From the IMG/VR virus record IMGVR_UViG_3300009686_000008, positions 1 to 38,562 of that record: DNA of 38,562 nt; one strand, 5' to 3'. How positions within the stretch are numbered: position 1 is the first letter of the stretch; each line of letters starts with the position of its first letter. Positions 672-11,016 of the stretch are shown piece after piece. The DNA is from a virus. Under the pieces are notes generated by a model. It ran no database searches and was not told the DNA's origin. It saw only the letters and a list, made by a program, of their open reading frames with translations. A program made the translations under genes and the position numbers.

Positions 672-776
672 CGTGTATGAAAATGACGGAGGAGCTGGAT
701 CACCCTGCAATTGTCAGAATATTATAATAATTTGCCGACCTCCGAATTGTCGCAATATTCAGAAAATTGCGCAAAT

Positions 777-803
777 AAAAAAGGTAGGACAACGTCCTAC
801 CTT
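777..803 (-). terminator. Intrinsic terminator of the 873-1199 gene
   Basis: AAGGTAGGAC (781-790) pairs perfectly with 794-803 around a 3-nt loop. On the minus strand the stem is followed by a run of T (complement of the A-run at 775-780). It lies about 70 nt past the stop codon, unlike most other cassettes here. Confidence 0.85.
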
Positions 804-872
804 AATGATGTGTGGATGATATAGGTCCAGGGGGAGTTCCTATACCAATCCTATATAAGGAGGGAGAGGTGA

Positions 873-1199
873 CTACTCGCCGGCCTCTTCCTTTTCCTTA
901 GCTCTCTTAGCCTTGTCCTTCTCAGCCTTAGCCTTGGACTTAGCTTCCTTCTCAGCTGCCTTGACAGCCTTTTCAGCGTACTCTTCCATAGCGTCCTCAG
1001 CGTCGAACTCAAGAGCCTTGGCAACAGCCTTTACTACTACGTACAGGTCAGTGTTGACATCTCTCAGGATAAGACCCTCAGTGGCGCGTCCTACAACCTC
1101 GTAACCAACAGCTCCCAGGTTAGCTTCCAGAGAAGCACCTAGTACCTCGTATACAGTCTCCCTAGCCACGTTCATTTCCTTCACATTTCTCTTTTCCAT
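873..1199 (-). CDS. Lys/Glu/Ala-rich small protein, paralogue 1 of 3
   Basis: 108 residues, function unknown. Residues 1-75 form a compact domain starting MEKRNVKE and containing GRATEGLILRD and YVVVKAVAKALEFDAEDA. The last ~35 residues are almost only A, K and E, predicted helical, highly charged and soluble, superficially like histone-H1-type or coiled-coil tails. It has two paralogues in this window, at 4777-5067 and 6244-6552, sharing the MEKRNVKE start, the G(R)ATEGL core and VVxKxxTKxxxFD. The ATG is preceded by AAAGGCGG. Upstream sit three nearly identical consensus promoters about 100 bp apart, so it is expected to be among the most strongly transcribed genes of the region. The basic/acidic tail would suit binding to nucleic acid or to an abundant host protein, but this is inference. 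Confidence 0.8.
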   Translation of the reverse strand: MEKRNVKEMNVARETVYEVLGASLEANLGAVGYEVVGRATEGLILRDVNTDLYVVVKAVAKALEFDAEDAMEEYAEKAVKAAEKEAKSKAKAEKDKAKRAKEKEEAGE

Positions 1200-1233
1200 T
1201 TTATTACCGCCTTTTTAATTTATTTTGTTTTTT

Positions 1234-1275
1234 GTCTATAACTAATTATACCATGATTTTGGAAGTGTGTCAAGT
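1234..1275 (-). promoter_or_regulatory. Promoter P1 of the 873-1199 gene
   Basis: On the minus strand TTGACA (1268-1273), 17-bp spacer, TATAAT (1245-1250). The -10 lies in the palindrome TATAATTAGTTATA. First of three copies. Confidence 0.9.
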
Positions 1276-1333
1276 TTTTTCTGTCGGATTTTGAAAAGTT
1301 TTTCTGATAGGGAGCTTCACTTCATTTCCTTTT

Positions 1334-1375
1334 CCCTATAACTAATTATACCATGATTTTGGGAGTCTGTCAAGA
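1334..1375 (-). promoter_or_regulatory. Promoter P2 of the 873-1199 gene
   Basis: Second copy: TTGACA (1368-1373), 17 bp, TATAAT (1345-1350), with the same downstream half-spacer AAAATCATGG and the same TATAATTAGTTATA palindrome. Confidence 0.9.
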
Positions 1376-1431
1376 CTTGGTGCGGGAAATTTATTTTTCA
1401 AATTCCTCTGTCCACCGATTCCCTTATTTCT

Positions 1432-1473
1432 TTCTATAACTAATTATACCATGATTTTTGGTTCCTGTCAAGA
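1432..1473 (-). promoter_or_regulatory. Promoter P3 of the 873-1199 gene
   Basis: Third copy: TTGACA (1466-1471), 17 bp, TATAAT (1443-1448), again with AAAATCATGG in the spacer and the TATAATTAGTTATA palindrome over the -10. Confidence 0.9.
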
Positions 1474-1866
1474 TTTAAAATAAAAAATTTAGGCATAGTA
1501 AAGTGTGCGGTGCTTTGGATCCAGCTGTATATATATAATATGCCACAATTGTCTGAATATTCTGAAAATTGCGAAAATTGGATCTACGTGTCAAATTTGT
1601 TAAAAAAATAACACTGTCAGAATATTCTGAAAACTCAGCGGTGCTTTGATATCGGCTGTATATATATAATATAGAAAATTTCTATAATTGTCAGAATATT
1701 CTGAAAATTTGGAAAGTTCTGTCAAATTTGTGAACGAAGTTGGAATTATCTGAAAATTTGCAATATTCTGAAATTTGGCCGCGGCTAGTTGTCTGAATTG
1801 TCTGAAAATTCGCCGACCCAAATTCTGAGAAATAGATCGAATATTCTGACAATTATATCCAAAGGA
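1474..1866. other. Spacer rich in AATTGTC/GAATATTC repeats
   Basis: No supported gene. It contains two related elements, gcggtgctttggatccagct plus GTATATATATAATAT at 1507-1541 and a near copy at 1637-1672, many AATTGTCtGAATATTCtGA half-sites, and a 34-bp palindrome at 1782-1815. Confidence 0.6.
1782..1815. repeat. 34-bp class intergenic palindrome
   Basis: Begins CGGCTAGTTGTCTG and ends CTGAAAATTCGCCG. Same length and ends as the copies at 2834, 2870, 8051 and 8750. Confidence 0.75.
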
Positions 1867-1888
1867 ATAGGAGCTATTAAGCTCCTAT
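1867..1888 (-). terminator. Stop-codon-overlapping terminator
   Basis: ATAGGAGCT (1867-1875) pairs with 1880-1888; the 4-nt loop holds the TAA stop (1877-1879) of the exonuclease gene. The T-tract on the minus strand is interrupted (ATTCCTTT). Confidence 0.7.
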
Positions 1889-2617
1889 ATATTCCTTATA
1901 CAGTTTGGATACCTTTTGCCATGGATTGGATAGAATACCTTTAGTGAAAGCCTTTTTACTTTCTAGTGATTTGATAGCAATCATATATTCAATCTGTACA
2001 TCTTCTAATGCGGTGTGATGTTCCTCATATTCAGGGTTATCAGTTAGATATCTATATACTATCTCTGCGCTTGTTTTGGGATTACCGGACGGTGTCAGGA
2101 AGTTATGAAATTCTACAAATTCCAGATAATCCCATTTTTTCATTAAAAGCGTTTCAACTGCTAAACCCCAAATATCTTGAAATTGTAGCGTGTCGGGGAA
2201 AAATTGCTTAATGTCTTTGTTCTCCTTATCCCACATTTTCAAAAATACCATTGTGGAGCGGATAGCTCTTAAATCGAAATTCAAGTTATATGCCATGAGA
2301 GTGTTATGCTTTACAAGTGATATGTCATGAATCAGTAATTCTAAAATCTCCTTGAATGACCTAACTAGAATGTCAGCCTTGCAAATTCTTTCTTTATACG
2401 TTTCAATCTTAGAACCATAATAGGCGTTATTCATAATAGGATTATAGAAAATTTCTTGAACGATAAATTCTCTGTCTACAATGGTATTACCTTTTTTGTC
2501 AGCTAATTTCCAACCTATATCATAAATAAGGGGAAACGCTAAACCAGGGATATTATCAAGACCTGTTGTTTCAGTATCCAGGACGGTGAGATAATGCTTT
2601 CTGTTGTCAAGTTTCAT
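1877..2617 (-). CDS. DEDDh 3'-5' exonuclease (DnaQ/RNase T-like), copy 1
   Basis: 246 residues. Expected to remove nucleotides from 3' ends of single-stranded DNA or RNA using two metal ions. All DEDDh motifs are visible: Exo I VLDTETTGLD (D14, E16), Exo II NLNFDLRAI (D115), and Exo III HHTALEDVQIE (H201, D206). It is a stand-alone nuclease with no polymerase domain. A paralogue lies at 9888-10619 with the same MKxDNRKxY start, the same motif spacing and a shared SKxxxxGIxxNPWxxxSKxYK C-terminus. The start ATG follows GAAAGGAATTGATAA, a leader found in several other cassettes. A role in phage DNA metabolism, host nucleic-acid turnover or defence against host RNA-based systems is possible; the sequence does not distinguish these. 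Confidence 0.9.
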   Translation of the reverse strand: MKLDNRKHYLTVLDTETTGLDNIPGLAFPLIYDIGWKLADKKGNTIVDREFIVQEIFYNPIMNNAYYGSKIETYKERICKADILVRSFKEILELLIHDISLVKHNTLMAYNLNFDLRAIRSTMVFLKMWDKENKDIKQFFPDTLQFQDIWGLAVETLLMKKWDYLEFVEFHNFLTPSGNPKTSAEIVYRYLTDNPEYEEHHTALEDVQIEYMIAIKSLESKKAFTKGILSNPWQKVSKLYKEYIGA

Positions 2618-2653
2618 AAAATTATCAATTCCTTTCGTGTGCCTTATGTATCT

Positions 2654-2682
2654 ATTATAGCATATATAGCCAATAAATAGTA
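2654..2682 (-). promoter_or_regulatory. Promoter of the 1877-2617 exonuclease
   Basis: Extended -10 TGCTATAAT (-10 at 2654-2659). The -35 position (2677-2682, TACTAT) is poor, suggesting dependence on the extended -10 or on an activator, perhaps through the box at 2688-2708. Confidence 0.65.
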
Positions 2683-2687
2683 GTGCT

Positions 2688-2708
2688 AAACTGGTAATGT
2701 TTCAGCCT
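2688..2708. promoter_or_regulatory. 21-bp box shared with 11,602-11,622
   Basis: CTGGTAATGTTTCAGCC here and CTTGTAATGTTTTAGCC at 11,605, with matching AAA before and T after: 19 of 21 bases agree. Both lie upstream of leftward promoters with weak -35 boxes, 22 bp (two helical turns) apart in register. Confidence 0.55.
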
Positions 2709-2833
2709 ATTTTTTGCCAAACTCGTAGTCAGAATTGTCACACAATTCGCCGTCCCTTTGGAATCTGCCGTATATATATAATATATATGTTTGAATTGTC
2801 AGAATATTCTGAAAATTTGGATCAAGAGGAAGG

Positions 2834-2903
2834 CGGCTAATTATCTGAATATTCTGACAATTCGCCGACCGGCCAGATGTTTAAATTGTCTGATAATTCG
2901 CCG
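2834..2903. repeat. Two 34-bp palindromes in tandem
   Basis: 2834-2867 (CGGCTAATTATCTG...CTGACAATTCGCCG) and 2870-2903 (CGGCCAGATG...CTGATAATTCGCCG), separated by AC. The first also contains the inner palindrome GAATATTC. Confidence 0.8.
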
Positions 2904-2911
2904 CATGAAAA

Positions 2912-2930
2912 AAAGTGCTTAAAGCACTTT
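2912..2930 (-). terminator. Stop-codon-overlapping terminator
   Basis: AAAGTGC (2912-2918) pairs with 2924-2930; the loop contains the TAA stop (2919-2921). The minus strand continues into CTTTTTTTC. Confidence 0.85.
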
Positions 2931-3197
2931 TAGTACTGACTTTTCAAATAGGGTAGAATTTTCAAGATATACGATTAAGTCTTTTAGGTCTTCTTTATAT
3001 ATATAGTCGGGCGCATCATCTTCACAAAGTTCATCTTTCCATTCATAAACTGTAATTTGAAAAGCATCTTCTAACAAAGCTATCTGCTCTAAGATTTCAA
3101 TAGGATATAGCCGGTGGCCTTGTAGCACCTGCACCTCGTCAACATAAAGCATTTCCCAATCTTCAAAACCTGTAACATAAACTATTTGGTGTCTCAT
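2919..3197 (-). CDS. Acidic small protein, translationally coupled
   Basis: 92 residues beginning MRHQIVYVTGFEDWEML, acidic (many D and E in the last 45 residues), no signal peptide or membrane segment, family not recognised. The ATG at 3197 overlaps by one base the TAA of the upstream gene (TAATG), and the Shine-Dalgarno GAGGAG lies inside the end of that gene, so the two are coupled and share one promoter. A longer frame to 3221 exists but would overlap the upstream gene and lacks a ribosome site. Confidence 0.8.
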   Translation of the reverse strand: MRHQIVYVTGFEDWEMLYVDEVQVLQGHRLYPIEILEQIALLEDAFQITVYEWKDELCEDDAPDYIYKEDLKDLIVYLENSTLFEKSVLKVL

Positions 3198-3373
3198 TAT
3201 TCTAGCTCCTCTACTTCCCAATATGAAATTGGTTCGGTATCATATCCATTTGTACGTACTTTCCCCTCGTCTACCATTTTATCAGCTTCATAACGGGCCT
3301 CGTCCATATTTTCAGCTTCAACTTCTACCGTCTCCAAACCAGTAATCGGAATCCATACTCGATATTTTTTCAT
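3197..3373 (-). CDS. Small DpnD/PcfM-like protein
   Basis: 58 residues. The pattern MKKYRVWIP...VEVEAENMDEARYEADKMV recalls small beta-alpha proteins of the DpnD/PcfM-like type (a beta hairpin, then VEAxxxxEAxxxA), common in phages and conjugative elements with no firmly known role; this match is from memory of the pattern. The start was placed at 3373 because AAGGAG stands 8 nt upstream, while the in-frame ATG at 3379 is only 2 nt from it. First gene of a two-gene cassette with 2919-3197. Confidence 0.75.
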   Translation of the reverse strand: MKKYRVWIPITGLETVEVEAENMDEARYEADKMVDEGKVRTNGYDTEPISYWEVEELE

Positions 3374-3401
3374 TTTCATCACTCCTTAATGTTTATACCT
3401 T

Positions 3402-3430
3402 ATTATAGCATACATCATATACTATGTCAA
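3402..3430 (-). promoter_or_regulatory. Promoter of the 3373-2919 cassette
   Basis: TTGACA (3425-3430), 17 bp, TATAAT (3402-3407), with extended -10 TGC. Confidence 0.9.
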
Positions 3431-3442
3431 ATATGTTTAAAA

Positions 3443-3460
3443 TGTTGTAATATTCTGACA
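3443..3460. promoter_or_regulatory. Type I upstream site
   Basis: TGTTGTAATATTCTGACA, imperfect palindrome centred at about -57 of the promoter at 3402-3430. Confidence 0.65.
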
Positions 3461-3466
3461 ATTCGC

Positions 3467-3491
3467 CGGCAAATAATCTGACAATTCGCCG
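3467..3491. repeat. 25-bp class intergenic palindrome
   Basis: CGGCAAATAATCTG...CAATTCGCCG, next to a type I upstream site. Confidence 0.75.
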
Positions 3492-3497
3492 CATGAG

Positions 3498-3525
3498 AAA
3501 AGAGATATATTTCTATATCTCTTTT
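3498..3525 (-). terminator. Terminator of the lipoprotein gene
   Basis: Perfect 12-bp stem AAAAGAGATATA (3498-3509) with 3514-3525, loop 4 nt, 5 nt past the TAG at 3531; the stem itself ends in TTTT on the minus strand. Confidence 0.8.
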
Positions 3526-3530
3526 ATATA

Positions 3531-3980
3531 CTAAGGTTGAATTACACTATCAGGGATAGTATTCATTGGCTCCTCACCAGTTTTTATTTCAATTTCAATT
3601 GGAAGAATGGCTTCAGGTTTGAATATTAGTTCATATCTATAAGGGTTAACATCAGCCGTTCCGATTTGTTCAACAGTATAAGTAACATTATCGCTTAAAC
3701 CTAGAAAGTGTTTTTGATACTTATCAGGTCCGATTTTAGCCGTAACTTCTAACTGATTGTCAGCACTGTCTATATTGATTGAGATATTACCAACCATTTC
3801 TAAGATATAAGTATCTGTGATTGAGTTATAAAAGATAACTCTTCTTATAATTCTAAATTCATCGGCTTCTTTACTAAGGTTATATGAAACCGTCTCGGCC
3901 TCTCTTGAACAACCGTTTAGTATAGGAAGAAAAGTAAACAATACTAGCATAAGAACCACCATTTTTTTAATCTGTTTCAT
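3531..3980 (-). CDS. Phage beta-sandwich lipoprotein
   Basis: 149 residues. An N-terminal lipoprotein signal (K-rich start, hydrophobic residues 8-20, lipobox ILNGC with C24) predicts lipid anchoring on the outer face of the host membrane. The mature part carries SYNLSKEADEFRIIRRVIFYN, GPDKYQKHFLGLSDNVTY and YRYELIFKPEAILP, the pattern I know from phage and prophage lipoproteins of streptococci, enterococci and relatives described as beta-sandwich lipoproteins. Membrane-anchored phage lipoproteins can block DNA entry of related phages (superinfection exclusion, as for Ltp of TP-J34); applying that role here is inference. It has its own promoter, a leader hairpin and its own terminator. Confidence 0.85.
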   Translation of the reverse strand: MKQIKKMVVLMLVLFTFLPILNGCSREAETVSYNLSKEADEFRIIRRVIFYNSITDTYILEMVGNISINIDSADNQLEVTAKIGPDKYQKHFLGLSDNVTYTVEQIGTADVNPYRYELIFKPEAILPIEIEIKTGEEPMNTIPDSVIQP

Positions 3981-4001
3981 TTTAATAATCCCCTTTCTTT
4001 C

Positions 4002-4018
4002 AGGTTATTTCCTAACCT
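4002..4018 (-). promoter_or_regulatory. Leader hairpin of the lipoprotein gene
   Basis: AGGTTA (4002-4007) pairs with TAACCT (4013-4018) just downstream of the transcription start and upstream of the GAAAGGGG ribosome site. Confidence 0.5.
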
Positions 4019-4026
4019 CTATATAT

Positions 4027-4055
4027 AGTATAACACACTTTGTTTTAGCTGTCAA
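4027..4055 (-). promoter_or_regulatory. Promoter of the lipoprotein gene
   Basis: TTGACA (4050-4055), 17 bp, TATACT (4027-4032). Confidence 0.88.
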
Positions 4056-4067
4056 ATTTATTTTGAA

Positions 4068-4085
4068 TGTTGTAATATTCTGACA
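4068..4085. promoter_or_regulatory. Type I upstream site
   Basis: TGTTGTAATATTCTGACA, centred at about -57 of the lipoprotein promoter. Confidence 0.65.
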
Positions 4086-4103
4086 ATTTACCGGTCAAAA
4101 GTG

Positions 4104-4128
4104 CGGCAAATAGTCTGACAATTCGCCG
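4104..4128. repeat. 25-bp class intergenic palindrome
   Basis: CGGCAAATAGTCTG...CAATTCGCCG. Confidence 0.75.
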
Positions 4129-4136
4129 TACAAAGA

Positions 4137-4155
4137 AAAGGTCAAAAAGACCTTT
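4137..4155 (-). terminator. Stop-codon-overlapping terminator
   Basis: AAAGGTC (4137-4143) pairs with 4149-4155; the TGA stop (4142-4144) sits at the loop edge. The minus strand continues CCTTTTCTTTG. Confidence 0.75.
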
Positions 4156-4576
4156 CTTCTCTTTTGATTAAGGTTGAGTAAACTACTGCTTTTTCAATAT
4201 TACTCCAGTCTACTTCTTCCCAAATAGGAGCTTTCAAACACATTAAATCAACTTCTTCTGAATAGTATCCGTTTGATTCTCCGTACCACCTTAAAGTAAT
4301 ACAGGCTTTTTCTGTAGCAATTTTGTAAAAAGATAATGTTTCTTCATCTTTCTTTTCTATGGATTCTTCAGCGAAAAGAATTTTAGAATTTAAAATACTA
4401 TTTAAATCTCCTTCAATCTCCTCAAGATAAACGCTTTCGCAACAATCCTGGAGATGAGTCATTTGAATAACCATACCATTCTTACAATAGAAATAAATAG
4501 AAGTAGAATCTTCATCTTTCTCTATTTTTACAATTGTTTCTCCTTTAAAAATATCAAAATCAACTCTTTGAAACAT
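4142..4576 (-). CDS. DUF7448-like phage protein
   Basis: 144 residues. The pattern GETIVKIEKDEDSTSIYFYC, then MTHLQDCCESVYLEEIEGDLNSI, ILFAEES, TLSFYKIATEKACITLRWYG and SNGYYSEEVDL matches what I remember of the phage family named DUF7448, whose function is unknown; the conserved QDCCE and SNGYYSE boxes are its signature. The start is placed at 4576 (MFQRVDFD) because the GGGG ribosome site is 8 nt upstream; the in-frame ATG at 4582 is too close to it. Separate promoter and terminator. No membrane segment. Confidence 0.82.
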   Translation of the reverse strand: MFQRVDFDIFKGETIVKIEKDEDSTSIYFYCKNGMVIQMTHLQDCCESVYLEEIEGDLNSILNSKILFAEESIEKKDEETLSFYKIATEKACITLRWYGESNGYYSEEVDLMCLKAPIWEEVDWSNIEKAVVYSTLIKREERSF

Positions 4577-4604
4577 TTTCATCACCCCTTTTTCTTTATA
4601 CTTT

Positions 4605-4633
4605 ATTATAACACGTTTTTAATACCTTGTCAA
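4605..4633 (-). promoter_or_regulatory. Promoter of the DUF7448-like gene
   Basis: TTGACA (4628-4633), 17 bp, TATAAT (4605-4610). Confidence 0.9.
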
Positions 4634-4645
4634 ATGTGTTTAAAA

Positions 4646-4663
4646 TGTTGTAATATTCTGACA
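4646..4663. promoter_or_regulatory. Type I upstream site
   Basis: TGTTGTAATATTCTGACA, centred at about -57 of the promoter at 4605-4633. Confidence 0.65.
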
Positions 4664-4751
4664 ATTTACCGGTAAAATCGGCCAAAAGTGTGAATTTTCT
4701 GACAATTATGATCGAAAACGCGGCAAATTGTCAGATAATTCAAAACATTAA

Positions 4752-4773
4752 AAAAGAGCTTTTCAGCTCTTTT
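4752..4773 (-). terminator. Terminator of paralogue 2
   Basis: AAAAGAGCT (4752-4760) pairs with 4765-4773, loop 4 nt; the minus strand ends in CTTTTTTAATG. It lies 3 nt past the TAG stop at 4777-4779. Confidence 0.88.
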
Positions 4774-4776
4774 CTA

Positions 4777-5067
4777 CTAGTCAGCCTTTTTGACGGTTTT
4801 AACTTTGCCGTTCTTCTTGGCTTCCTTGGCTCTCTTTTCGGCTTCCTTCTCCTCAAACTCTTGAACAACCTCACCACCGTCAAAGTCGATAGCCTTAGTG
4901 ATGACCTTTACAACCACGCTCAAACCGTCAGCGTTCTCAAACACCAAACCCTCGGTAGCTCGTCCGATGAACTTATGACCGGAGAATCCGTTATCAACAG
5001 TAGCAACCAAATCAGTGTAAAAATTTTCCCTAGTAGTAGCAGATTCCTTAACATTTCTCTTTTCCAT
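4777..5067 (-). CDS. Charged-tail small protein, paralogue 2 of 3
   Basis: 96 residues, function unknown. Starts MEKRNVKESATTRENFY like paralogue 1, with core GHKFIGRATEGLVFEN and LSVVVKVITKAIDF, then a K/E/A-rich tail shorter and more basic at the end (KNGKVKTVKKAD) than in the other copies. The ATG follows AGGTGATT. Its promoter has a weaker -35 (TTGTAA) than paralogue 1 and carries a type I upstream site at -67, one helical turn further out than usual. Divergence among the three copies is large outside the core, so the duplications are not recent. Confidence 0.82.
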   Translation of the reverse strand: MEKRNVKESATTRENFYTDLVATVDNGFSGHKFIGRATEGLVFENADGLSVVVKVITKAIDFDGGEVVQEFEEKEAEKRAKEAKKNGKVKTVKKAD

Positions 5068-5117
5068 GTGTAATCACCTCGTATTTTATTTAGCTCGGTT
5101 TCCCTTGCTATGAATAT

Positions 5118-5146
5118 AGTATACCATACATCAAAAAATCTTACAA
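5118..5146 (-). promoter_or_regulatory. Promoter of paralogue 2
   Basis: TTGTAA (5141-5146), 17 bp, TATACT (5118-5123). Confidence 0.8.
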
Positions 5147-5168
5147 CCCCTTTTTGAAAAATAATTAA

Positions 5169-5186
5169 TGTTGTAATATTCTGACA
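5169..5186. promoter_or_regulatory. Type I upstream site
   Basis: TGTTGTAATATTCTGACA, centred at about -67 of the paralogue 2 promoter, 10 bp farther than the other type I sites. Confidence 0.6.
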
Positions 5187-5246
5187 ATTCGCCATGAGGA
5201 GCTGGATTTTGAATTGTCTGAATATTCTGAAAACTTGCCGACCAAC

Positions 5247-5271
5247 CGGCTAATTGTGTGAAAATTTGCCG
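5247..5271. repeat. 25-bp class intergenic palindrome
   Basis: CGGCTAATTGTGTG...AAATTTGCCG. Confidence 0.7.
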
Positions 5272-5280
5272 CACAAAAGA

Positions 5281-5302
5281 AATAGAGATTTTACTCTCTA
5301 TT
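5281..5302 (-). terminator. Stop-codon-overlapping terminator
   Basis: AATAGAGA (5281-5288) pairs with TCTCTATT (5295-5302); the TAG of the small membrane gene (5298-5300) is in the stem. The minus strand continues TTTCTTTTG. Confidence 0.75.
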
Positions 5303-5474
5303 CTAAAAAAGTTATTAAGTTTAAAGATATAAAGAAGACTATAAATAAAGCATTTCTAAAGAATTTTAATTCTATATCTTGTCTATCAGCGATACCTATC
5401 GGATACACACCTACGAAAGATATAAATAAAAATAGTAATTCTAAAGCTACGATTATCAAAATTGTTTCAATCAT
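5298..5474 (-). CDS. Small two-helix membrane protein
   Basis: 58 residues: MIETILIIVALELLFLFI at the N-terminus, a short polar stretch (GIADRQDIELKFF), then NALFIVFFISLNLITFLE, giving two predicted transmembrane helices. The ATG at 5474 follows the upstream stop as TAAAATG, so translation is coupled to the zinc-ribbon gene, and the stop lies inside a terminator hairpin, which marks it as the last gene of the cassette. Family not recognised. Membrane-acting phage small proteins include exclusion factors and holin-like proteins; nothing here selects between them. Confidence 0.75.
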   Translation of the reverse strand: MIETILIIVALELLFLFISFVGVYPIGIADRQDIELKFFRNALFIVFFISLNLITFLE

Positions 5475-5475
5475 T

Positions 5476-5700
5476 TTACTCTCTACTTCCTTTCTCTAAA
5501 CTCTTTCCACAAATAGGACAAAAGTTAATTTCAATTTCGATTGAGGCTCTTGTACCCTCATAGTTATAAGCATTATCAATTTCGATGGATATCACAGCAG
5601 AATCTTGTGAAGGGTCATTCTCAACTGATATTGACCATATATCACTATCGGTCATTTGCTCATTATTATAAGTTTTTTTACAGTATGTACATTCATCCAT
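5476..5700 (-). CDS. Small zinc-ribbon protein
   Basis: 74 residues starting MDECTYCKKTY. Two CxxC pairs, C4/C7 and C61/C64 (CPICGKSLEK), frame an acidic beta-strand-rich centre (SAVISIEIDNAYNYEG), the layout of a zinc ribbon with an inserted domain. The CPICG motif near the C-terminus is typical of small phage zinc-binding proteins. Start chosen at 5700, 8 nt after AAGGAG; a longer frame to 5757 runs through the promoter and is rejected. First gene of a cassette with the small membrane protein. Confidence 0.82.
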   Translation of the reverse strand: MDECTYCKKTYNNEQMTDSDIWSISVENDPSQDSAVISIEIDNAYNYEGTRASIEIEINFCPICGKSLEKGSRE

Positions 5701-5728
5701 GTCACTCACTCCTTTTTGTTTATACCTT

Positions 5729-5757
5729 ATTATAGCATACATTTTAATTCCTGTCAA
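5729..5757 (-). promoter_or_regulatory. Promoter of the zinc-ribbon cassette
   Basis: TTGACA (5752-5757), 17 bp, TATAAT (5729-5734), extended TGC. Leader similar to the 3402-3430 promoter (AAGGTATAAAC). Confidence 0.9.
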
Positions 5758-5815
5758 ATTATTTTTTTAAGATAATTTGTCGGCTAATTATCTGACAATT
5801 ATATCTAAAAGAAAA

Positions 5816-5831
5816 GGGACTATATAGTCCC
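5816..5831 (-). terminator. Stop-codon-overlapping hairpin
   Basis: GGGAC (5816-5820) pairs with GTCCC (5827-5831); the TAG stop (5820-5822) is at the loop. The minus strand continues CTTTTCTTTTAG. Confidence 0.7.
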
Positions 5832-6056
5832 AATAGGCTTTGTCTTTTGAGGTGGGGCAACTCTTACCTTGTAGGTATTGTAACCATATTTTAGCATATC
5901 GTTTCGATTCCAACTTCTTTTGTTACATATCTCGGAGATAGCTTTTTTAGTGTATTTGGTATCACCTGCGAAATCTAGCCTTGAATTTGCTTCGATTAGG
6001 CATGAAACCGGCTTATAGCCTTTGTCGGACCAGATAGTAAATTGATATAGTGTCAT
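5820..6056 (-). CDS. Small basic protein, unknown
   Basis: 78 residues, basic, starting MTLYQFTIWSDKGYKPVSCL, with no signal peptide, membrane helix or metal motif. The first ~25 residues could form beta strands and the middle (TKKAISEICNKRSWNRNDML) a helix. Family not recognised. The start is supported by AAGGAG 10 nt upstream; the ribosome site directly follows a TTAGGTATAACCTAA palindrome, so a protein bound there would cover both promoter and the leader's beginning. Confidence 0.78.
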   Translation of the reverse strand: MTLYQFTIWSDKGYKPVSCLIEANSRLDFAGDTKYTKKAISEICNKRSWNRNDMLKYGYNTYKVRVAPPQKTKPIGTI

Positions 6057-6073
6057 TTATACATCACTCCTTA

Positions 6074-6116
6074 TTAGGTTATACCTAATTATAGCACGTA
6101 TTCAAATCAATGTCAA
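6074..6116 (-). promoter_or_regulatory. Promoter with overlapping palindromic operator
   Basis: TTGACA (6111-6116), 17 bp, TATAAT (6088-6093). The perfect-arm palindrome TTAGGTATAACCTAA (6074-6088) touches the -10 and covers the expected start site. Confidence 0.9.
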
Positions 6117-6135
6117 ATATTTTTTACAAAATTGT

Positions 6136-6160
6136 CGGCTAATTATCACACAATTTGCCG
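6136..6160. repeat. 25-bp class intergenic palindrome
   Basis: CGGCTAATT, 7 bp, AATTTGCCG. A partial second copy follows at 6193 (CGGCTAATTTTCAG...). Confidence 0.78.
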
Positions 6161-6237
6161 CGGCAATTTACCTAAATATTCTGACAATTTGCTCGGCTAA
6201 TTTTCAGAATTGTCTGACAATTCCAAACAAAGGAAAG

Positions 6238-6256
6238 GGAAGGCTATTCGCCTTCC
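6238..6256 (-). terminator. Stop-codon-overlapping terminator
   Basis: GGAAGGC (6238-6244) pairs with GCCTTCC (6250-6256); the TAG (6244-6246) of paralogue 3 is at the loop. The minus strand continues CTTTCCTTTG. Confidence 0.78.
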
Positions 6257-6552
6257 TCTTCTTTCTTAGCTTTTTCTTTCTTTGCTTTGTCCTTTGCTCC
6301 CTTCGCTTTTCTTTCAGCTTCTTTCTTGACTTTTTCAGCCTGTTTCATTTCAAAATCTTCGACTTCGGCTTCGGCTTCAAACTCAGGAGATTTAGTGATA
6401 ACTTTGATAACTACTGCTAATCCTTCCTCATTCTCAAATACCATGCCTTCGGCAATTCTGCCTAAGAATTTGTGTCCTGTGATTTCAACCTCTTTCATGC
6501 AATTGTAAGCCATTTCTCTTGTGATGTTTGCCTCTTTTACTTCTCTTCTCAT
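6244..6552 (-). CDS. Charged-tail small protein, paralogue 3 of 3
   Basis: 102 residues, function unknown. Starts MRREVKEANITREMAY; core GHKFLGRIAEGMVFEN and LAVVIKVITKSPEF clearly match paralogue 2; the tail after residue ~65 is nearly all K, E and A with KAK repeats (KGAKDKAKKEKAKKEEEGE). Closest to paralogue 2 in the core and to paralogue 1 in the tail. Own consensus promoter, but a 35-residue membrane gene lies just upstream with no terminator between them, so read-through can add to its transcription. Confidence 0.82.
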   Translation of the reverse strand: MRREVKEANITREMAYNCMKEVEITGHKFLGRIAEGMVFENEEGLAVVIKVITKSPEFEAEAEVEDFEMKQAEKVKKEAERKAKGAKDKAKKEKAKKEEEGE

Positions 6553-6590
6553 TTTTATTACTTCCTTTCCTTTCTTATTGGGTATATCTT

Positions 6591-6619
6591 ATTATAACAT
6601 GGTTTGTTTTGGTTGTCAA
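6591..6619 (-). promoter_or_regulatory. Promoter of paralogue 3
   Basis: TTGACA (6614-6619), 17 bp, TATAAT (6591-6596). Confidence 0.9.
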
Positions 6620-6628
6620 CTGTTTTTT

Positions 6629-6736
6629 TTACCAGATTGGAAACTTTCTTGACCATTCAATCGCTACCATTGTAGCACCGACTAAAACGAAAGGGATAAA
6701 GATTAAAGTGATTGTACCAAGTACCTCTAGTATCAT
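6629..6736 (-). CDS. 35-residue single-span membrane peptide
   Basis: Starts MILEVLGTITLIFIPFVLVG, ending VAIEWSRKFPIW: one predicted transmembrane helix and a short basic C-terminal tail. A very strong ribosome site (GAGGAGG) stands upstream, and the leader follows a complete promoter with the TTAGGTATAACCTAA palindrome, which is why I accept a frame this short. It ends 10 bp before the -35 of paralogue 3 and has no terminator of its own. Function unknown. Confidence 0.75.
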   Translation of the reverse strand: MILEVLGTITLIFIPFVLVGATMVAIEWSRKFPIW

Positions 6737-6753
6737 GTTCTTTTTCCTCCTCT

Positions 6754-6796
6754 TTAGGTTATACCTAATTATAGCACACGTTCCGACCTATTGCAA
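6754..6796 (-). promoter_or_regulatory. Promoter with palindromic operator
   Basis: TTGCAA (6791-6796), 17 bp, TATAAT (6768-6773); TTAGGTATAACCTAA palindrome at 6754-6768. Confidence 0.85.
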
Positions 6797-6808
6797 CACT
6801 TTCTTAAA

Positions 6809-6826
6809 TGTTGTAATATTCTGACA
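6809..6826. promoter_or_regulatory. Type I upstream site
   Basis: TGTTGTAATATTCTGACA, centred at about -57 of the promoter at 6768-6796. Confidence 0.65.
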
Positions 6827-6894
6827 ATTCGCCGCAGGAGCTGGATCAATTGTGTGAATAGTTCAAACAATTCTGACAATTTGCCGCATGGGAA

Positions 6895-6918
6895 AAGAGA
6901 TGATTATTATCATCTCTT
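6895..6918 (-). terminator. Stop-codon-overlapping terminator
   Basis: AAGAGATGAT (6895-6904) pairs with 6909-6918, 10 bp, loop 4 nt; the TGA stop (6910-6912) lies in the stem. The minus strand continues CTTTTCCC. Confidence 0.8.
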
Positions 6919-7248
6919 ATATTTTTCTCTAAGTATTTCAAATTCTTTTTCTCGGTCTTCTTCGATTTCTTTATTCACTATAAAAATACTTCCGTTTTCA
7001 AAACAAGTTTTAAAATCTGGGAAACTTTCTTTGCAAGAAGTAATAAAAGCTGTAACAGTTTCTGAAACAATATATATTGGAATCATAGCAATCGTTATGA
7101 ATACTGTTATTAGTCTATTCCCAACAATATAGGTTGTACCATTTTCTTCGGGTATTGCTTTCTTTAGGTAATGGAATTTTGAATTAAATCTTGACCTCTT
7201 TTTTAATTCTCTCTGGGTTCTTTCGTCTAGGTTTTTTACTTTTATCAT
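6910..7248 (-). CDS. Single-span membrane protein with charged ends
   Basis: 112 residues beginning MIKVKNLDERTQRELKKRS. A basic N-terminal half (~40 residues) precedes one hydrophobic segment (LITVFITIAMIPIYIVSETV), followed by an acidic, helical C-terminus (NKEIEEDREKEFEILREKYKR). Two cysteines flank PDFKT after the membrane segment. Family not recognised. Start at 7248 chosen after the GAAAGGAATTGATAAAA leader; the longer frame to 7350 covers the promoter. Confidence 0.78.
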   Translation of the reverse strand: MIKVKNLDERTQRELKKRSRFNSKFHYLKKAIPEENGTTYIVGNRLITVFITIAMIPIYIVSETVTAFITSCKESFPDFKTCFENGSIFIVNKEIEEDREKEFEILREKYKR

Positions 7249-7281
7249 TTTTATCAATTCCTTTCTTATTTGGTATACCTT

Positions 7282-7310
7282 ATTATAGCATATATCCAAA
7301 ATAATGTCAA
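7282..7310 (-). promoter_or_regulatory. Promoter of the 6910-7248 gene
   Basis: TTGACA (7305-7310), 17 bp, TATAAT (7282-7287), extended TGC; followed by AAGGTATACC. Confidence 0.9.
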
Positions 7311-7332
7311 ATATATTTTTTAATAAATCTAC

Positions 7333-7384
7333 CGGCAAATTTTCACACAATTAGCCGACCGGCAAGTTGTCGCACAATTCGCCG
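7333..7384. repeat. Two 25-bp palindromes in tandem
   Basis: 7333-7357 (CGGCAAATT, 7 bp, AATTAGCCG) and 7360-7384 (CGGCAAGTT, 7 bp, AATTCGCCG), separated by AC. Confidence 0.82.
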
Positions 7385-7394
7385 CATGAGGAAA

Positions 7395-7422
7395 GATATA
7401 GAAGCTATATAGCTTCTATATC
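7395..7422 (-). terminator. Stop-codon-overlapping terminator
   Basis: GATATAGAAGC (7395-7405) pairs perfectly with 7412-7422; the TAG (7405-7407) is at the loop. The minus strand continues TTTCCTC. Confidence 0.75.
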
Positions 7423-7914
7423 ACTTAGGAGATTTTTGAGATTTCCTATATCTAATACTATTTGATGATACTTTCTAGTAGCTTTATACTTGTTACCAAA
7501 TTTAACAGCTATACCACCTTTATTCGTCCAATCGTTTAAATTACCTTTATAATCATCTAGCAAAACGCTATCTTTAATATCACTTCTTAGATACTTTGTC
7601 TTCTCTTTGTCGATAGGGACTATGATAACTTCATCTTTAGATATGCAAGGGATATGTCTTGATACCCAATCATATTTATTGATAGCTCTTTCAGGTCCGT
7701 CTGATATATCTACTTTAGTTAAGATATATACTTTATATCCTAGTTGCTGAAGTTCTTCTATCCTTGCGTTAGGGTTTCCGATTGGTTCAAGGTTCAAAAA
7801 GAAATTTGGGATATCTAACCAAGGTTGTTCGTATATATGCTGCATAGCTTTTACTGCTTTGTCGAAATTTGCGACTACTCCGTCCATGTCGATATAAATT
7901 GTTAAGTTTTTCAT
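7405..7914 (-). CDS. HAD-superfamily 5'(3')-nucleotidase-like phosphatase
   Basis: 169 residues. Motif I is TIYIDMDGVVANFD (D9 nucleophile, D11 acid/base), motif II YILTKVD, and motif IV VLLDDYKGNLNDW, the order and spacing of small NT5C-type (deoxy)ribonucleotidases, which hydrolyse nucleoside monophosphates; the DMDGVxAxF form is typical of that group. In phages such enzymes may adjust nucleotide pools or supply modified-nucleotide pathways. The start was set at 7914, after GAAAGGAATTGATAA; the longer frame to 7989 would encode the promoter. Weak -35 with a type II upstream palindrome suggests activation. Confidence 0.88.
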   Translation of the reverse strand: MKNLTIYIDMDGVVANFDKAVKAMQHIYEQPWLDIPNFFLNLEPIGNPNARIEELQQLGYKVYILTKVDISDGPERAINKYDWVSRHIPCISKDEVIIVPIDKEKTKYLRSDIKDSVLLDDYKGNLNDWTNKGGIAVKFGNKYKATRKYHQIVLDIGNLKNLLSDIEAI

Positions 7915-7934
7915 ATTTATCAATTCCTTTCTAT

Positions 7935-7977
7935 TTAGGTTATACCTAATTATAGCACACAATACACGCCAATTCAA
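7935..7977 (-). promoter_or_regulatory. Promoter with palindromic operator (nucleotidase)
   Basis: TTGAAT (7972-7977), 17 bp, TATAAT (7949-7954), TTAGGTATAACCTAA palindrome at 7935-7949. Confidence 0.82.
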
Positions 7978-7987
7978 TAGATATTTC

Positions 7988-8010
7988 AATGTTCACAAAT
8001 TGTTAACATT
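7988..8010. promoter_or_regulatory. Type II upstream site
   Basis: TGTTCACAAATTGTTAACA core with AA/TT flanks; imperfect 23-bp palindrome centred at -57. Identical 23 bp occur at 8687-8709 in the same position of the next promoter. Confidence 0.75.
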
Positions 8011-8023
8011 TGGCATAAATTGC

Positions 8024-8084
8024 CGGCAAGTTATCTGACAATTTGCCGACCGGTTAGTTTTTCAAATAGTATGACAATTCGCCG
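8024..8084. repeat. 25-bp plus 34-bp palindromes in tandem
   Basis: 8024-8048 (CGGCAAGTTATCTG...CAATTTGCCG) and 8051-8084 (CGGTTAGTTT...ATGACAATTCGCCG), separated by AC. Confidence 0.8.
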
Positions 8085-8091
8085 CACAAAA

Positions 8092-8116
8092 GAGAATAGG
8101 GCGAACCCTAGTTCTC
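8092..8116 (-). terminator. Stop-codon-overlapping hairpin
   Basis: GAGAATAGGG (8092-8101) pairs with 8106-8116 with one bulged base; TAG stop at 8108-8110. The minus strand continues TTTTGTGC. Confidence 0.68.
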
Positions 8117-8287
8117 AATTACTAATCCAGTTCCAACAGTTCCTTGCCTGAAATCGTCTATGATAATAGTTAGGATAGAAACTCTTTTAACAGTTTCTCC
8201 TTGTCCTACTATATAGTAGGTAGTACGTATAAGAGGTATAGATAAGAGGATAAGGAGTAGACCGAGATAGACTATTTTTTTTAGCAT
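8108..8287 (-). CDS. Small signal-anchored protein
   Basis: 59 residues starting MLKKIVYLGLLLILLSIPLI, a signal-anchor or uncleaved signal, followed by an exposed tail with GQGETVKRVSILTIIIDDF and a Gly-rich end (RQGTVGTGLVIEN). No lipobox or clear cleavage site. ATG follows the upstream stop as TAAAATG, with the ribosome site AAGGAG inside the upstream gene, so translation is coupled, exactly as in the cassette at 5298-5700. Stop codon inside the terminator. Function unknown. Confidence 0.75.
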   Translation of the reverse strand: MLKKIVYLGLLLILLSIPLIRTTYYIVGQGETVKRVSILTIIIDDFRQGTVGTGLVIEN

Positions 8288-8288
8288 T

Positions 8289-8612
8289 TTATTTCATCTC
8301 CTTCATTTTTAGTTTTAGTCTTTTTAGTTCCTGTTTTCTCTCTACATTACACTGGATATTTGATAAGAAATCTAAAGCGTTCTTTTGGGTAGTCCAGTTT
8401 TTATAGTTCTCAAAAGTATCTTCTAGCTCTAGCAATTTGCAATAAAGTTTTAGTCTTTCAGCTTCTTTATTAAGTTGGCGAAACTCTAATATAATTTTCG
8501 GATAAGTATTACTTAAACTTCTTTTATTTGCCTCAAGGTAGGAAGCCTTAGAGTGCATCTCCCAAAAATGACTTCTTACTGTAAAATTTTTCATTAATTC
8601 TTTTTCTTTCAT
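8289..8612 (-). CDS. Basic coiled-coil-like protein, unknown
   Basis: 107 residues starting MKEKELMKNFTVRSHFW; mostly helical, rich in L, K and E, ending in a basic run RKQELKRLKLKMKEMK. Heptad-like LxxLEDxFENYKNW and LNKEAERLKLYCKLLEL patterns suggest a coiled coil. Family not recognised. Start at 8612 follows GAAAGGAATTGATAATA, as for the second exonuclease. First gene of a cassette with the signal-anchored protein; weak -35 plus type II site upstream. Confidence 0.78.
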   Translation of the reverse strand: MKEKELMKNFTVRSHFWEMHSKASYLEANKRSLSNTYPKIILEFRQLNKEAERLKLYCKLLELEDTFENYKNWTTQKNALDFLSNIQCNVERKQELKRLKLKMKEMK

Positions 8613-8633
8613 TATTATCAATTCCTTTCCTAT

Positions 8634-8676
8634 TTAGGTTATACCTAATTATAGCATACAATTCTAGTATTATCAA
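8634..8676 (-). promoter_or_regulatory. Promoter with palindromic operator
   Basis: TTGATA (8671-8676), 17 bp, TATAAT (8648-8653), TTAGGTATAACCTAA at 8634-8648. Confidence 0.85.
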
Positions 8677-8686
8677 GAGATACTTT

Positions 8687-8709
8687 AATGTTCACAAATT
8701 GTTAACATT
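8687..8709. promoter_or_regulatory. Type II upstream site
   Basis: Exact copy of the 23 bp at 7988-8010, again centred at -57. Confidence 0.75.
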
Positions 8710-8710
8710 T

Positions 8711-8722
8711 GGAGGAGCTGGA
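8711..8722 (+). repeat. GGAGGAGCTGGA repeat (representative copy)
   Basis: One of eight copies, all on the plus strand and all in spacers: 688, 5196, 6836, 8711, 9830, 10749, 11701 and 12014. The element opposes the direction of transcription and is not followed by a start codon. Confidence 0.75.
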
Positions 8723-8783
8723 CGGCAAATTATCACACAATTTGCCGACCGGCGAGTTGATTGAATTATCTGACAATTCGCCG
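8723..8783. repeat. 25-bp plus 34-bp palindromes in tandem
   Basis: 8723-8747 is the cleanest copy (CGGCAAATT, 7 bp, AATTTGCCG, perfect 9-bp arms); 8750-8783 is a 34-bp copy; AC between them. Confidence 0.85.
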
Positions 8784-8797
8784 CACGAACAAAAGAA

Positions 8798-8817
8798 AAG
8801 AGAACAGATGTTCTCTT
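8798..8817 (-). terminator. Stop-codon-overlapping terminator
   Basis: AAGAGAAC (8798-8805) pairs with 8810-8817, loop AGAT; the TAA stop (8816-8818) overlaps the stem. The minus strand continues TTTCTTTTG. Confidence 0.78.
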
Positions 8818-9328
8818 ATTTCTCATTTAGAGCCGCATAGTCTACGATATATTGATTAACTATATTTCCACTATGAATATCTTCTACTTCATAAGGTAAA
8901 TCATTCAAGTCAGACCAATGGCTATAAGTTCCTTTTTTCATCTCGTTAGCATCTTCATAGAATCCTTTAATATCAATAGCATTTTCATTTCTCTTCTTTC
9001 TGACTTTAATTTCGATACACTTTGCAAAATACTTTGCTTCGGGTAAATCTTTAATTTTCAGTGAGAATAAATATTCTGTTAAAGTTCCCTTACAAGGAGC
9101 AGGAAGTTCAAAACCTTTAGCTTTAAGTTTATTAATTTTTACAACGGCTTCATCATCTTGAAACTCTCTAAGTAAGTCCATAACTACTACTCCGTCGGGT
9201 CTTCCTAAGTGATTCCAGGAACTTTTGTACCTAGGAAGTTTACAAACCAGACCATTATCTAGAAGAACCGCTTTTCTTGAGCAACCATGCCCCAATTTGC
9301 TTGTTACGATATGCTTTCCAACTTTCAT
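8816..9328 (-). CDS. Miniature protein-kinase-like protein
   Basis: 170 residues. Kinase-fold landmarks appear in order: a Gly-rich loop SKLGHGCSRKAVLLDNG (residues 10-26), an invariant-Lys-like VCKLPR (K30), a helical middle region, a catalytic-loop-like EDIHSGNIV (D150, N155), and a DFG-like metal site YIVDYA (D163) near the end. The DxHxGN...VDY form resembles atypical kinases and phosphotransferases (ABC1/KdoK/APH types). It is far shorter than a normal kinase (250 or more) and stops right after the metal-binding Asp, so the usual C-lobe helices are missing. It could be an active minimal kinase, a pseudo-kinase, or an inhibitor mimic. Start follows AAGGAGTTGGATAAAA. Confidence 0.65.
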   Translation of the reverse strand: MKVGKHIVTSKLGHGCSRKAVLLDNGLVCKLPRYKSSWNHLGRPDGVVVMDLLREFQDDEAVVKINKLKAKGFELPAPCKGTLTEYLFSLKIKDLPEAKYFAKCIEIKVRKKRNENAIDIKGFYEDANEMKKGTYSHWSDLNDLPYEVEDIHSGNIVNQYIVDYAALNEK

Positions 9329-9349
9329 TTTTATCCAACTCCTTCTTAT

Positions 9350-9392
9350 TTAGGTTATACCTAATTATAGCATACTATGTTATCAGTTACAA
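9350..9392 (-). promoter_or_regulatory. Promoter with palindromic operator (kinase-like gene)
   Basis: TTGTAA (9387-9392), 17 bp, TATAAT (9364-9369), TTAGGTATAACCTAA at 9350-9364. Confidence 0.82.
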
Positions 9393-9404
9393 CCTTTTTA
9401 AAAA

Positions 9405-9422
9405 TGTTGTAATATTCTGACA
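9405..9422. promoter_or_regulatory. Type I upstream site
   Basis: TGTTGTAATATTCTGACA, centred at about -57 of the kinase-like gene promoter. Confidence 0.65.
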
Positions 9423-9436
9423 ATTTGCCGAGGGAA

Positions 9437-9458
9437 AAGGGTTTTAATAAAAACCCTT
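9437..9458 (-). terminator. Stop-codon-overlapping terminator
   Basis: AAGGGTTTT (9437-9445) pairs with 9450-9458, loop AATA; the TAA stop (9444-9446) lies across the loop edge. The minus strand continues TTCCC. Confidence 0.72.
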
Positions 9459-9656
9459 ATACTCTATTACTCTTTTCTTATATCCTTTTTCTAAAAACTC
9501 TTCTTTTGATAATCCTAATTGTTTTAAAACTCTATACAAACTCATATCTTTCAGAATTTGCATATCAGTAGGATAATACTTTGCTTTTGAAATATCTCTA
9601 ATTGTTTCACAACCTACGCCACCGTACCTAATTTCATAAACAAATTGCTTTTCCAT
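9444..9656 (-). CDS. Small basic protein, unknown
   Basis: 70 residues starting MEKQFVYEIRYGGVGCETI. A likely beta hairpin at the N-terminus is followed by helices (DMQILKDMSLYRVLKQLGLSKEEFL) with spacing reminiscent of a small helix-turn-helix, and a basic end (KKRVIEYKGFY). No firm family. Start chosen at 9656, after AAGGAGTGATTCAA. Single-gene cassette. Confidence 0.75.
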   Translation of the reverse strand: MEKQFVYEIRYGGVGCETIRDISKAKYYPTDMQILKDMSLYRVLKQLGLSKEEFLEKGYKKRVIEYKGFY

Positions 9657-9686
9657 TTGAATCACTCCTTTTTATTGGTATACCTA

Positions 9687-9715
9687 ATTATAGCATACAA
9701 TTTTAACAAAAACAA
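9687..9715 (-). promoter_or_regulatory. Promoter of the 9444-9656 gene
   Basis: TTGTTT (9710-9715), 17 bp, TATAAT (9687-9692), extended TGC. The downstream palindrome is a shortened form (TTAGGTATACCAAT). Confidence 0.72.
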
Positions 9716-9729
9716 CAAAAATGACAAAA

Positions 9730-9745
9730 TTAACAAAATGTTCAT
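9730..9745. promoter_or_regulatory. Possible type II upstream site
   Basis: TTAACAAAATGTTCAT, centred at -57, a diverged form of the sites at 7988 and 8687. Confidence 0.5.
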
Positions 9746-9756
9746 AATTAGAATAC

Positions 9757-9781
9757 CGGCAAGTTATCTGACAACTCGCCG
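9757..9781. repeat. 25-bp class intergenic palindrome
   Basis: CGGCAAGTTATCTG...CAACTCGCCG; a half-copy CGGCGAATTGTCAGAATTG follows at 9789. Confidence 0.72.
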
Positions 9782-9874
9782 AAAGGGACGGCGAATTGTC
9801 AGAATTGTTTGATCATCACACACAATTCTGGAGGAGCTGGACGCGGCTAATTGTCAGACAATTCAGACAAAGGG

Positions 9875-9901
9875 AAAAGGCTATATACTATATAGCCTTT
9901 T
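9875..9901 (-). terminator. Stop-codon-overlapping terminator
   Basis: AAAAGGCTATA (9875-9885) pairs perfectly with 9891-9901; the TAG (9888-9890) of the exonuclease is in the 5-nt loop. The minus strand ends CCTTTTCCC. Confidence 0.82.
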
Positions 9902-10619
9902 TATATTTGCTTAACAGTTTCCAAGGATTTTCAAATATCCCTTTACTATACTTTTTGTGTTGTCGGAGAGCATGAACCAGAATTTCCACTTCTATATATA
10001 CATCAGACAAAGCGGTATGGTCTTCTATGAACTCGCTATCGTTGTGCATATATCTATATCCAACTTCGGCTGATGACCTCGGATTGCCCTTTTCGGTATA
10101 CAAGTCATTCAAGTCGATAAACCTTTTATATCCTTTCTGTGGAAGATATATACTTTCAACAGCCATTGCCCATATGTCTTGTATCTCAAAATCTCTATCG
10201 AATAGGCTTCTGATATTACCTTTATATCTCTTTTGATTAGTGAGATTAGCGGTAGCTTCTAAGGCTCTAAGGTCAAAGGATAGGTTGTAAGCTGAAATTG
10301 TGATGTTTGGATACCTATTCATAACTTTATTTAGGTTAAAAAGAATTTGACCAAAACTTCTAACTTGAATTGAACCGTTTTTAATTTGCTCATCATACCA
10401 AGGACGTTTTGAGCCATAAAAAGCGTTATTCATAGCCGGTGAACCGTAGATATTTTCGACTATATAGTTATAGCTTTCGTATATCTTGCCGGTCTTGTCG
10501 CAAACAGCGAACCCAATGTCATAGATTAGAGGCTTACTGGAATTATTGTCTTTGTCTAAAGTAGTAGTTTCAGTATCAAAAACTAGGAAGTATTTTTTGC
10601 GATTATCAATTTTCATCAT
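9888..10619 (-). CDS. DEDDh 3'-5' exonuclease (DnaQ/RNase T-like), copy 2
   Basis: 243 residues. Same architecture as the 1877-2617 gene: Exo I LVFDTETTTLD (D15, E17), Exo II YNLSFDLRALE, Exo III EDHTALSDVYIE, and the shared C-terminal GIFENPWKLLSKYKK. Identity between the copies looks moderate and spread over the full length, so both are likely functional and diverged rather than a recent duplication. Two adjacent ATGs (10619 and 10616) follow GAAAGGAATTGATAATA; the first was taken. The promoter has a weak -35 and a type II palindrome, whereas copy 1 has a different upstream box, so the two are probably expressed under different conditions. Confidence 0.9.
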   Translation of the reverse strand: MMKIDNRKKYFLVFDTETTTLDKDNNSSKPLIYDIGFAVCDKTGKIYESYNYIVENIYGSPAMNNAFYGSKRPWYDEQIKNGSIQVRSFGQILFNLNKVMNRYPNITISAYNLSFDLRALEATANLTNQKRYKGNIRSLFDRDFEIQDIWAMAVESIYLPQKGYKRFIDLNDLYTEKGNPRSSAEVGYRYMHNDSEFIEDHTALSDVYIEVEILVHALRQHKKYSKGIFENPWKLLSKYKKAI

Positions 10620-10639
10620 TATTATCAATTCCTTTCTTA

Positions 10640-10683
10640 TTAAGGTTATACCTTATTATAGCATGGATATAGACCAACTACAA
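10640..10683 (-). promoter_or_regulatory. Promoter of exonuclease copy 2
   Basis: TTGTAG (10678-10683), 17 bp, TATAAT (10655-10660), extended TGC; downstream palindrome AAGGTATAACCTT variant. Confidence 0.78.
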
Positions 10684-10696
10684 GAGGTTTCAAAAC

Positions 10697-11000: not shown

Positions 11001-11016
11001 GTAAACTTTTTACATT

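Follow-up and report, generated by a model that had tools for sequence, protein, structure and literature searches.

Three small genes of similar appearance, scattered along one arm of a phage contig, raise the question of whether they are true paralogues and, if so, why a phage would keep several diverged copies. The contig is the IMG/VR virus record IMGVR_UViG_3300009686_000008, 38,562 bases long, which we analyzed over its full length and call the window; positions without a further label are window coordinates. The genes are A (873-1199, 108 amino acids, with the core at residues 1-66 and the tail at 67-108), B (4777-5067, 96 amino acids), and C (6244-6552, 102 amino acids). A first-pass annotation had placed three open reading frames (ORFs) here and had read them as a family in which a conserved core is followed by a helical tail of variable length rich in lysine, glutamate, and alanine (K/E/A). 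All three ORFs are indeed present, all on the minus strand, and A is the final gene in the contig's left arm. We found that A, B, and C are, as judged from their sequences, three diverged members of an uncharacterized small-protein family of SPbeta-like phages.

The evidence for the family comes from the core. In a tblastn search of the record, the tail-less B core retrieved A at an E-value of 2e-14 and C at 1e-16; neither this search nor its repetition with a profile found a fourth copy in the record. The cores are 44% (A-B), 50% (B-C), and 34% (A-C) identical. In Smith-Waterman comparisons of the cores with the tails removed, the Z scores were 24, 30, and 15, respectively, and none of 1,000 shuffles reached the observed score. 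Thus, composition alone, the explanation that the annotation had set against its own claim, is excluded as the source of the similarity, and the family holds without its tails. The motifs M(E)xRxVKExxxxRExxY, GRxxEG(L/M)(V/I)(F/L), and VV(V/I)KxxxKxxxF are common to the three proteins; those first listed had been slightly overstated, with C lacking RAT (it has GRIAEG) and A lacking TK (it has AVAK). The genes are not adjacent, as had been noted, but scattered among unrelated genes, and the copies certainly arose by dispersed duplication.

The window is, to judge from its genes, a fragment of an SPbeta-like siphophage infecting Firmicutes-type bacteria, and it is called a fragment because SPbeta-like phages mostly measure 115-165 kb. 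The assignment comes from the terminase large subunit (TerL) gene of the YonF type (16372-18165, plus strand), whose product is 29.6-38.7% identical, over 88-99% of its length, to those of the 40 best-ranked records; its relatives are SPbeta-like phages of Bacillus, Geobacillus, Enterococcus, and Lactococcus (30-39% identity). The portal belongs to phrog_2739 (E 6.5e-94) and is 24-32% identical to the portals of isolates, and a left-arm gene matches the SPbeta-type accessory recombination profile phrog_478 (E 2.8e-42). The left 13 kb of the window holds small genes read leftward, and the right 25 kb holds the packaging, head, and tail genes, read rightward. The left minus-strand arm is presumed to be the early arm.

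A second contig, reached via relatives of the terminase, contains the family in the same arm. This contig, IMGVR_UViG_3300034683_000164 (G002), carries three members, D, E, and F, which matched the profile at E-values of 1.9e-16 to 1.2e-14, and its early arm also shares exonuclease and HAD-type nucleotidase genes with the window. All 15 pairs of the A-F cores gave Z scores of 8.7 to 32, with 0 of 1,000 shuffles reaching the score, so the similarity is again independent of tail composition. Thirteen residues are invariant in A-F (B numbering): K7, E8, R13, E14, G30, G35, E39, G40, V52, K54, K58, F62, and K74. In a tree of the cores, the B-C pair alone was supported (93/96), and the tree does not place the split of A from B and C before or after the G002 lineage. 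A gene of 60 amino acids beginning MxKKVYGQKNV stands ahead of D, and a second copy ahead of E (L028:8455-8637 and 9188-9370), which indicates that a two-gene cassette was duplicated in G002. The cassette duplication proposed in the annotation is therefore borne out there, for two members with their neighboring gene. Within its 3' end, this duplicated 60-amino-acid gene also carries the -35 box of the promoter that follows, ahead of D and E.

More distant proteins of the same build extend the set. In G012, a phage contig from the genome bin of an uncultured Clostridium, one weak match (K, E 0.003) was accompanied by three more proteins of this build (H, I, and J). A profile made from the G012 proteins found two to four copies in each of six SPbeta-like contigs (G012, G026, G048, G053, G055, and G059), all in the same (early) arm of their contigs; the E-values down to 1e-32 in this set belong to members that became rows of the profile. 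The same profile found no family member in 15 large isolate records of SPbeta-like phages. When the tail-masked cores of A-F were aligned with the wider set by hhalign, the probability was 50% and the E-value 1.6e-4 over 59 collinear columns, and the score of 25.6 was reached by none of 200 column-shuffled nulls (maximum 15.1). The score fell to 22.6 when K was left out and to 15.8, on a par with the highest null score, when a second bridging row was dropped as well; the link thus leans on two bridging sequences. We consider common descent of A-F and the wider set likely. In G053 (L163), a family-like core is fused to another C-terminal domain. A winged-helix fusion was considered, but this domain gave no significant match to the standalone winged-helix-like genes, and it was not used as evidence. 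Such a winged-helix-like small gene, with a lysine-rich linker, is widespread and occurs together with the family in SPbeta-like contigs (L140:180-521, L147:2767-3126, L168:12406-12750, and many relatives). Thirteen tRNA genes stand directly before J and K in the phage arm of G012 (L059:15441-17379).

No public model describes these proteins, in agreement with the annotation, which had not recognized the family. Pfam and PHROG scans of A, B, and C, full-length and tail-less, gave sub-threshold matches only, mostly on the charged tail, and a PDB sequence-profile search gave chance matches only, one of them to ribosomal protein L13 in its charged tail. Against 50,697 phage records, tblastn with A, B, C, F, I, J, and M returned nothing or chance matches at E 10. 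IMG/VR, scanned with degenerate patterns for B or for the A2 and A5 profiles, yielded no new relative beyond G002. The protein family is absent from public models; the kind of gene is already known, and this is not a new kind of system.

The control signals of the window copies are unusually strong, and the promoters differ among the genes. Upstream of A, three tandem 58-nt repeats, spaced 98-100 bp (1221-1476, minus strand), each contain a perfect promoter reading into A (TTGACA-17-(TGn)TATAAT, 12/12; 1245-1273, 1345-1373, and 1443-1471, minus strand). C has one perfect promoter (TTGACA-17-TATAAT, with an extended -10; 6591-6619, minus strand), and B has a weak promoter-like site (TTGTAA-17-TATACT, 9/12, with TG before the -10; 5118-5146, minus strand). 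This strong difference suggests at least different dosage. The annotation had taken the retention of three copies as a sign of separate targets or timing; the three sit together in the presumed early arm, and different targets are conceivable. Between 600 and 7500, all nine 12/12 promoters are on the minus strand and all nine have an extended -10. F, the copy at the arm end of G002, also has three tandem promoters, with one or two mismatches. In the wider set, 15 of 17 genes have a promoter with two or fewer mismatches within 200 bp upstream, compared with 1 of 22 genes in the window's right arm. Good ribosome binding sites (Shine-Dalgarno sequences) are present at the family genes. On the minus strand, terminator-like hairpins lie 3' of A (781-803, a 10-pair stem and then a T run, resembling an intrinsic terminator), immediately 3' of B (4749-4776), and over the stop codon of C (6238-6256), so the genes look monocistronic. 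Similar hairpins cover the stop codons of other family genes (L028:8900-8965 and 11430-11470), and this overlap may be the reason for the recurrent C-terminal Gly-Glu.

Codon use also sets A and B apart. The GC content at third codon positions is 0.53 in A and 0.49 in B, against 0.20-0.39 in other left-arm genes, including C (0.36); A has an overall GC content of 0.50, and all 15 of its lysine codons are AAG. Such codon use is as expected for highly expressed genes and would fit high expression without proving it.

AlphaFold predicted an alpha-beta-beta-beta-alpha fold for B from the six-sequence alignment (predicted local distance difference test 81, predicted TM score (pTM) 0.56), with helices at residues 3-25 and 64-95 and strands at 32-37, 40-44, and 50-53. 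The best Foldseek match of this model in BFVD, A0A8S5NIV7 of Siphoviridae sp. cttFh17, had a probability of 0.99 over 63 columns but an E-value of 0.06, a TM score of 0.45, and 14% identity, and it is unannotated and thus adds no function. Foldseek and VIA-align gave no convincing structural neighbor (best Z 5.2), which does not make the fold new. A second model (of M, with three sequences) was of low confidence (pTM 0.35), and its structural matches were ignored. The tail was also considered as a single alpha-helix; however, opposite-charge pairs at i+3/i+4 were not above shuffles, and this gave no evidence for it.

We favor, with somewhat less than even confidence, the reading that A, B, and C are proteins working like the host-takeover proteins of phage SPO1 through protein docking. 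Each copy would be expressed as a separate gene unit of the left minus-strand early arm, most strongly A from its three tandem near-ideal promoters. The globular part would be built of one helix, a sheet of three strands, and a further helix continuing into the highly charged K/E/A helix; the core would dock on a host (or phage) protein, with the charged helix as a soluble extension. We infer that the proteins appear early and in abundance, that they dock to other proteins, and that the target is in the host, where they would alter some host process during early infection, in the SPO1 fashion. Dispersed duplication would have added copies, raising dosage and, after divergence, perhaps reaching different partners.

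Several points weigh against this reading. Early timing is deduced from arm orientation and host-type promoters alone, and the family has no similarity to any known host-takeover protein. Docking is a guess, since no structural neighbor was convincing. The promoter of B is weak, so strong expression is not common to all copies, and the codon bias of A and B may partly follow from their K/E/A composition. As the family is missing from the 15 isolate records, it is not essential to SPbeta-like phages in general.

A role in nucleic-acid binding, which we regard as rather unlikely, would have DNA or RNA of the phage or the host coated, in a nucleoid-like manner, by the sheet, the lysine-rich helix, or both, and coating would need high expression. 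The helices are indeed rich in lysine, and the tails of the distant G012/L069 relatives are basic (+2 to +9, with H, I, K, and M at +6 to +9). For the G053 fusion protein, there is a weak match (E 0.028) to the profile of an Lsr2-like nucleoid protein. Double-stranded-RNA-binding domains (dsRBDs) have the element order alpha-beta-beta-beta-alpha, and the B model matches it, but no dsRBD was among the matches listed. The tails of A-F, although rich in K/E/A, are near charge-neutral (net -3 to +2), and the whole proteins of the window and G002 are neutral to acidic, with an isoelectric point (pI) of 4.9-6.6; thus, plain electrostatic binding of nucleic acids is not indicated, which weakens the annotation's proposal that the tails bind DNA, RNA, or nucleoid proteins. 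What is conserved in the last helix is its hydrophobic start, and most tail lysines are not positionally conserved. As for HU/IHF or another nucleoid protein, A, B, and C show no net basic charge, and they have no HU, H-NS, or dsRBD match in Pfam, PHROGs, or PDB profiles.

The multiple, diverging copies, their strong host-type promoters, and a copy number varying between relatives would also suit counter-defense decoys, small diversified paralogues that would bind and block different bacterial anti-phage systems and come in several copies because hosts vary. This is unlikely: the proteins are not strongly acidic, unlike DNA mimics; general libraries gave no match to a known anti-defense family (a defense library was not searched); and GRxxEG and K..K...F are kept across the paralogues, a sign of a single common partner and not of many. 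The conservation of core residues between two divergent phages, the intact frames of all six copies, and the three perfect promoters kept by A argue against selfish or neutral duplication, in which the copies would have no distinct functions and would be maintained by duplicating and recombining at repeats between genes. The dispersed copies are flanked by many palindromic intergenic elements (described below) that could drive recombination, and G002 has its duplicated cassette, yet we hold this to be quite improbable. Least probable is a structural, assembly, or membrane role, such as a scaffold or holin. It was raised by weak matches to a holin and a virion protein (phrog_608, E 0.029; phrog_14882, E 0.041; Pfam Holin_LLH, E 0.47), but these lie mainly on the charged tail and disappear with the core alone, the genes sit apart from those for head and tail, in the left arm, and the translations of A, B, and C contain no long hydrophobic segment that could cross a membrane.

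A further reading, which we put forward as doubtful, is that this undescribed family has a small alpha-beta-beta-beta-alpha fold of its own and serves uncultured SPbeta-like phages as a standard early tool that has been expanded, with two to four diverged copies in each acting on distinct host proteins. Gut and rumen data commonly contain uncultured SPbeta-like phages of Clostridia and their relatives, among them many of the genome bins and virus contigs of this analysis, and the early arms of these phages are almost unannotated. A family present in several copies, one of them under three perfect promoters, is a reasonable place to begin a search for their route of host takeover, and the consensus promoters with an extended -10 may find use as strong promoters of the host type. 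Should the wider family be a single superfamily, solving one structure would provide an annotation for many hypothetical proteins.

Other features of the window deserve mention. A palindromic intergenic element, TTGTCNGAATATTCTGACAA, with its variants, gave 47 matches with three or fewer mismatches, both strands counted, against 0.01 expected; it is confined to the left arm (711-12185), mostly between genes, and similar elements occur in G002. The early arm also contains two paralogous DnaQ-like exonuclease genes (1877-2617 and 9888-10628). Another paralogous pair of the window (11017-11496 and 12757-13239) is conserved in relatives (L028:2289-2780 and 3541-4005, and L168:13189-13611); this pair has a GDI...QVKS pattern that by eye resembles the PD-(D/E)XK nuclease core, and it has no PHROG match. 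The terminase gene of the window is intact and followed by a possible HNH/AP2-like ORF (18178-18633). In the nearest relatives (L005, L006, and L007), GIY-YIG-like and HNH-like ORFs, which probably encode homing endonucleases carried by introns, break up the terminase genes. The first 870 bases of the window and the last 677 bp of G002 hold no convincing genes beyond the triple-promoter family gene; these gene-poor ends could be a genome end or a repeat that breaks assembly.

The window resembles SPbeta in its terminase (30-39% identical), its portal, phrog_478, and its repeated intergenic elements, and it differs from the SPbeta-like isolates in having the family, which is present in 0 of the 15 records. 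SPbeta carries repeated intergenic elements, SPBRE, bound by MrpR (PMC10516654). By analogy, the elements of the window could be a set of repressor or recombination sites; both sets are repeated and intergenic, a likeness that does not come from base-by-base comparison, and no repressor was identified in the window. The host-takeover proteins of SPO1 are small and early, with strong promoters and ribosome binding sites, and include a ClpC adaptor (PMC6873191) and an RNA-binding protein (PMC10531801). Their genes lie in operons in the terminal redundancy of a myophage, unlike the single genes of a siphophage described here. The analogy covers the way of working only, not a relation in sequence or fold, and we do not claim membership in a host-takeover module. 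As in SPO1 (PMC6873191, PMC10531801), several small genes stand side by side. A lies 872 bp and F 677 bp from a contig end, which may recall the terminal position of the SPO1 genes, but both contigs are fragments, and the G048 and G053 relatives lie inside their contigs. Like the SPO1 proteins, those of this family are small (96-108 amino acids) and presumed early, with good ribosome binding sites and host-type promoters typical of high expression, that of B being weak.

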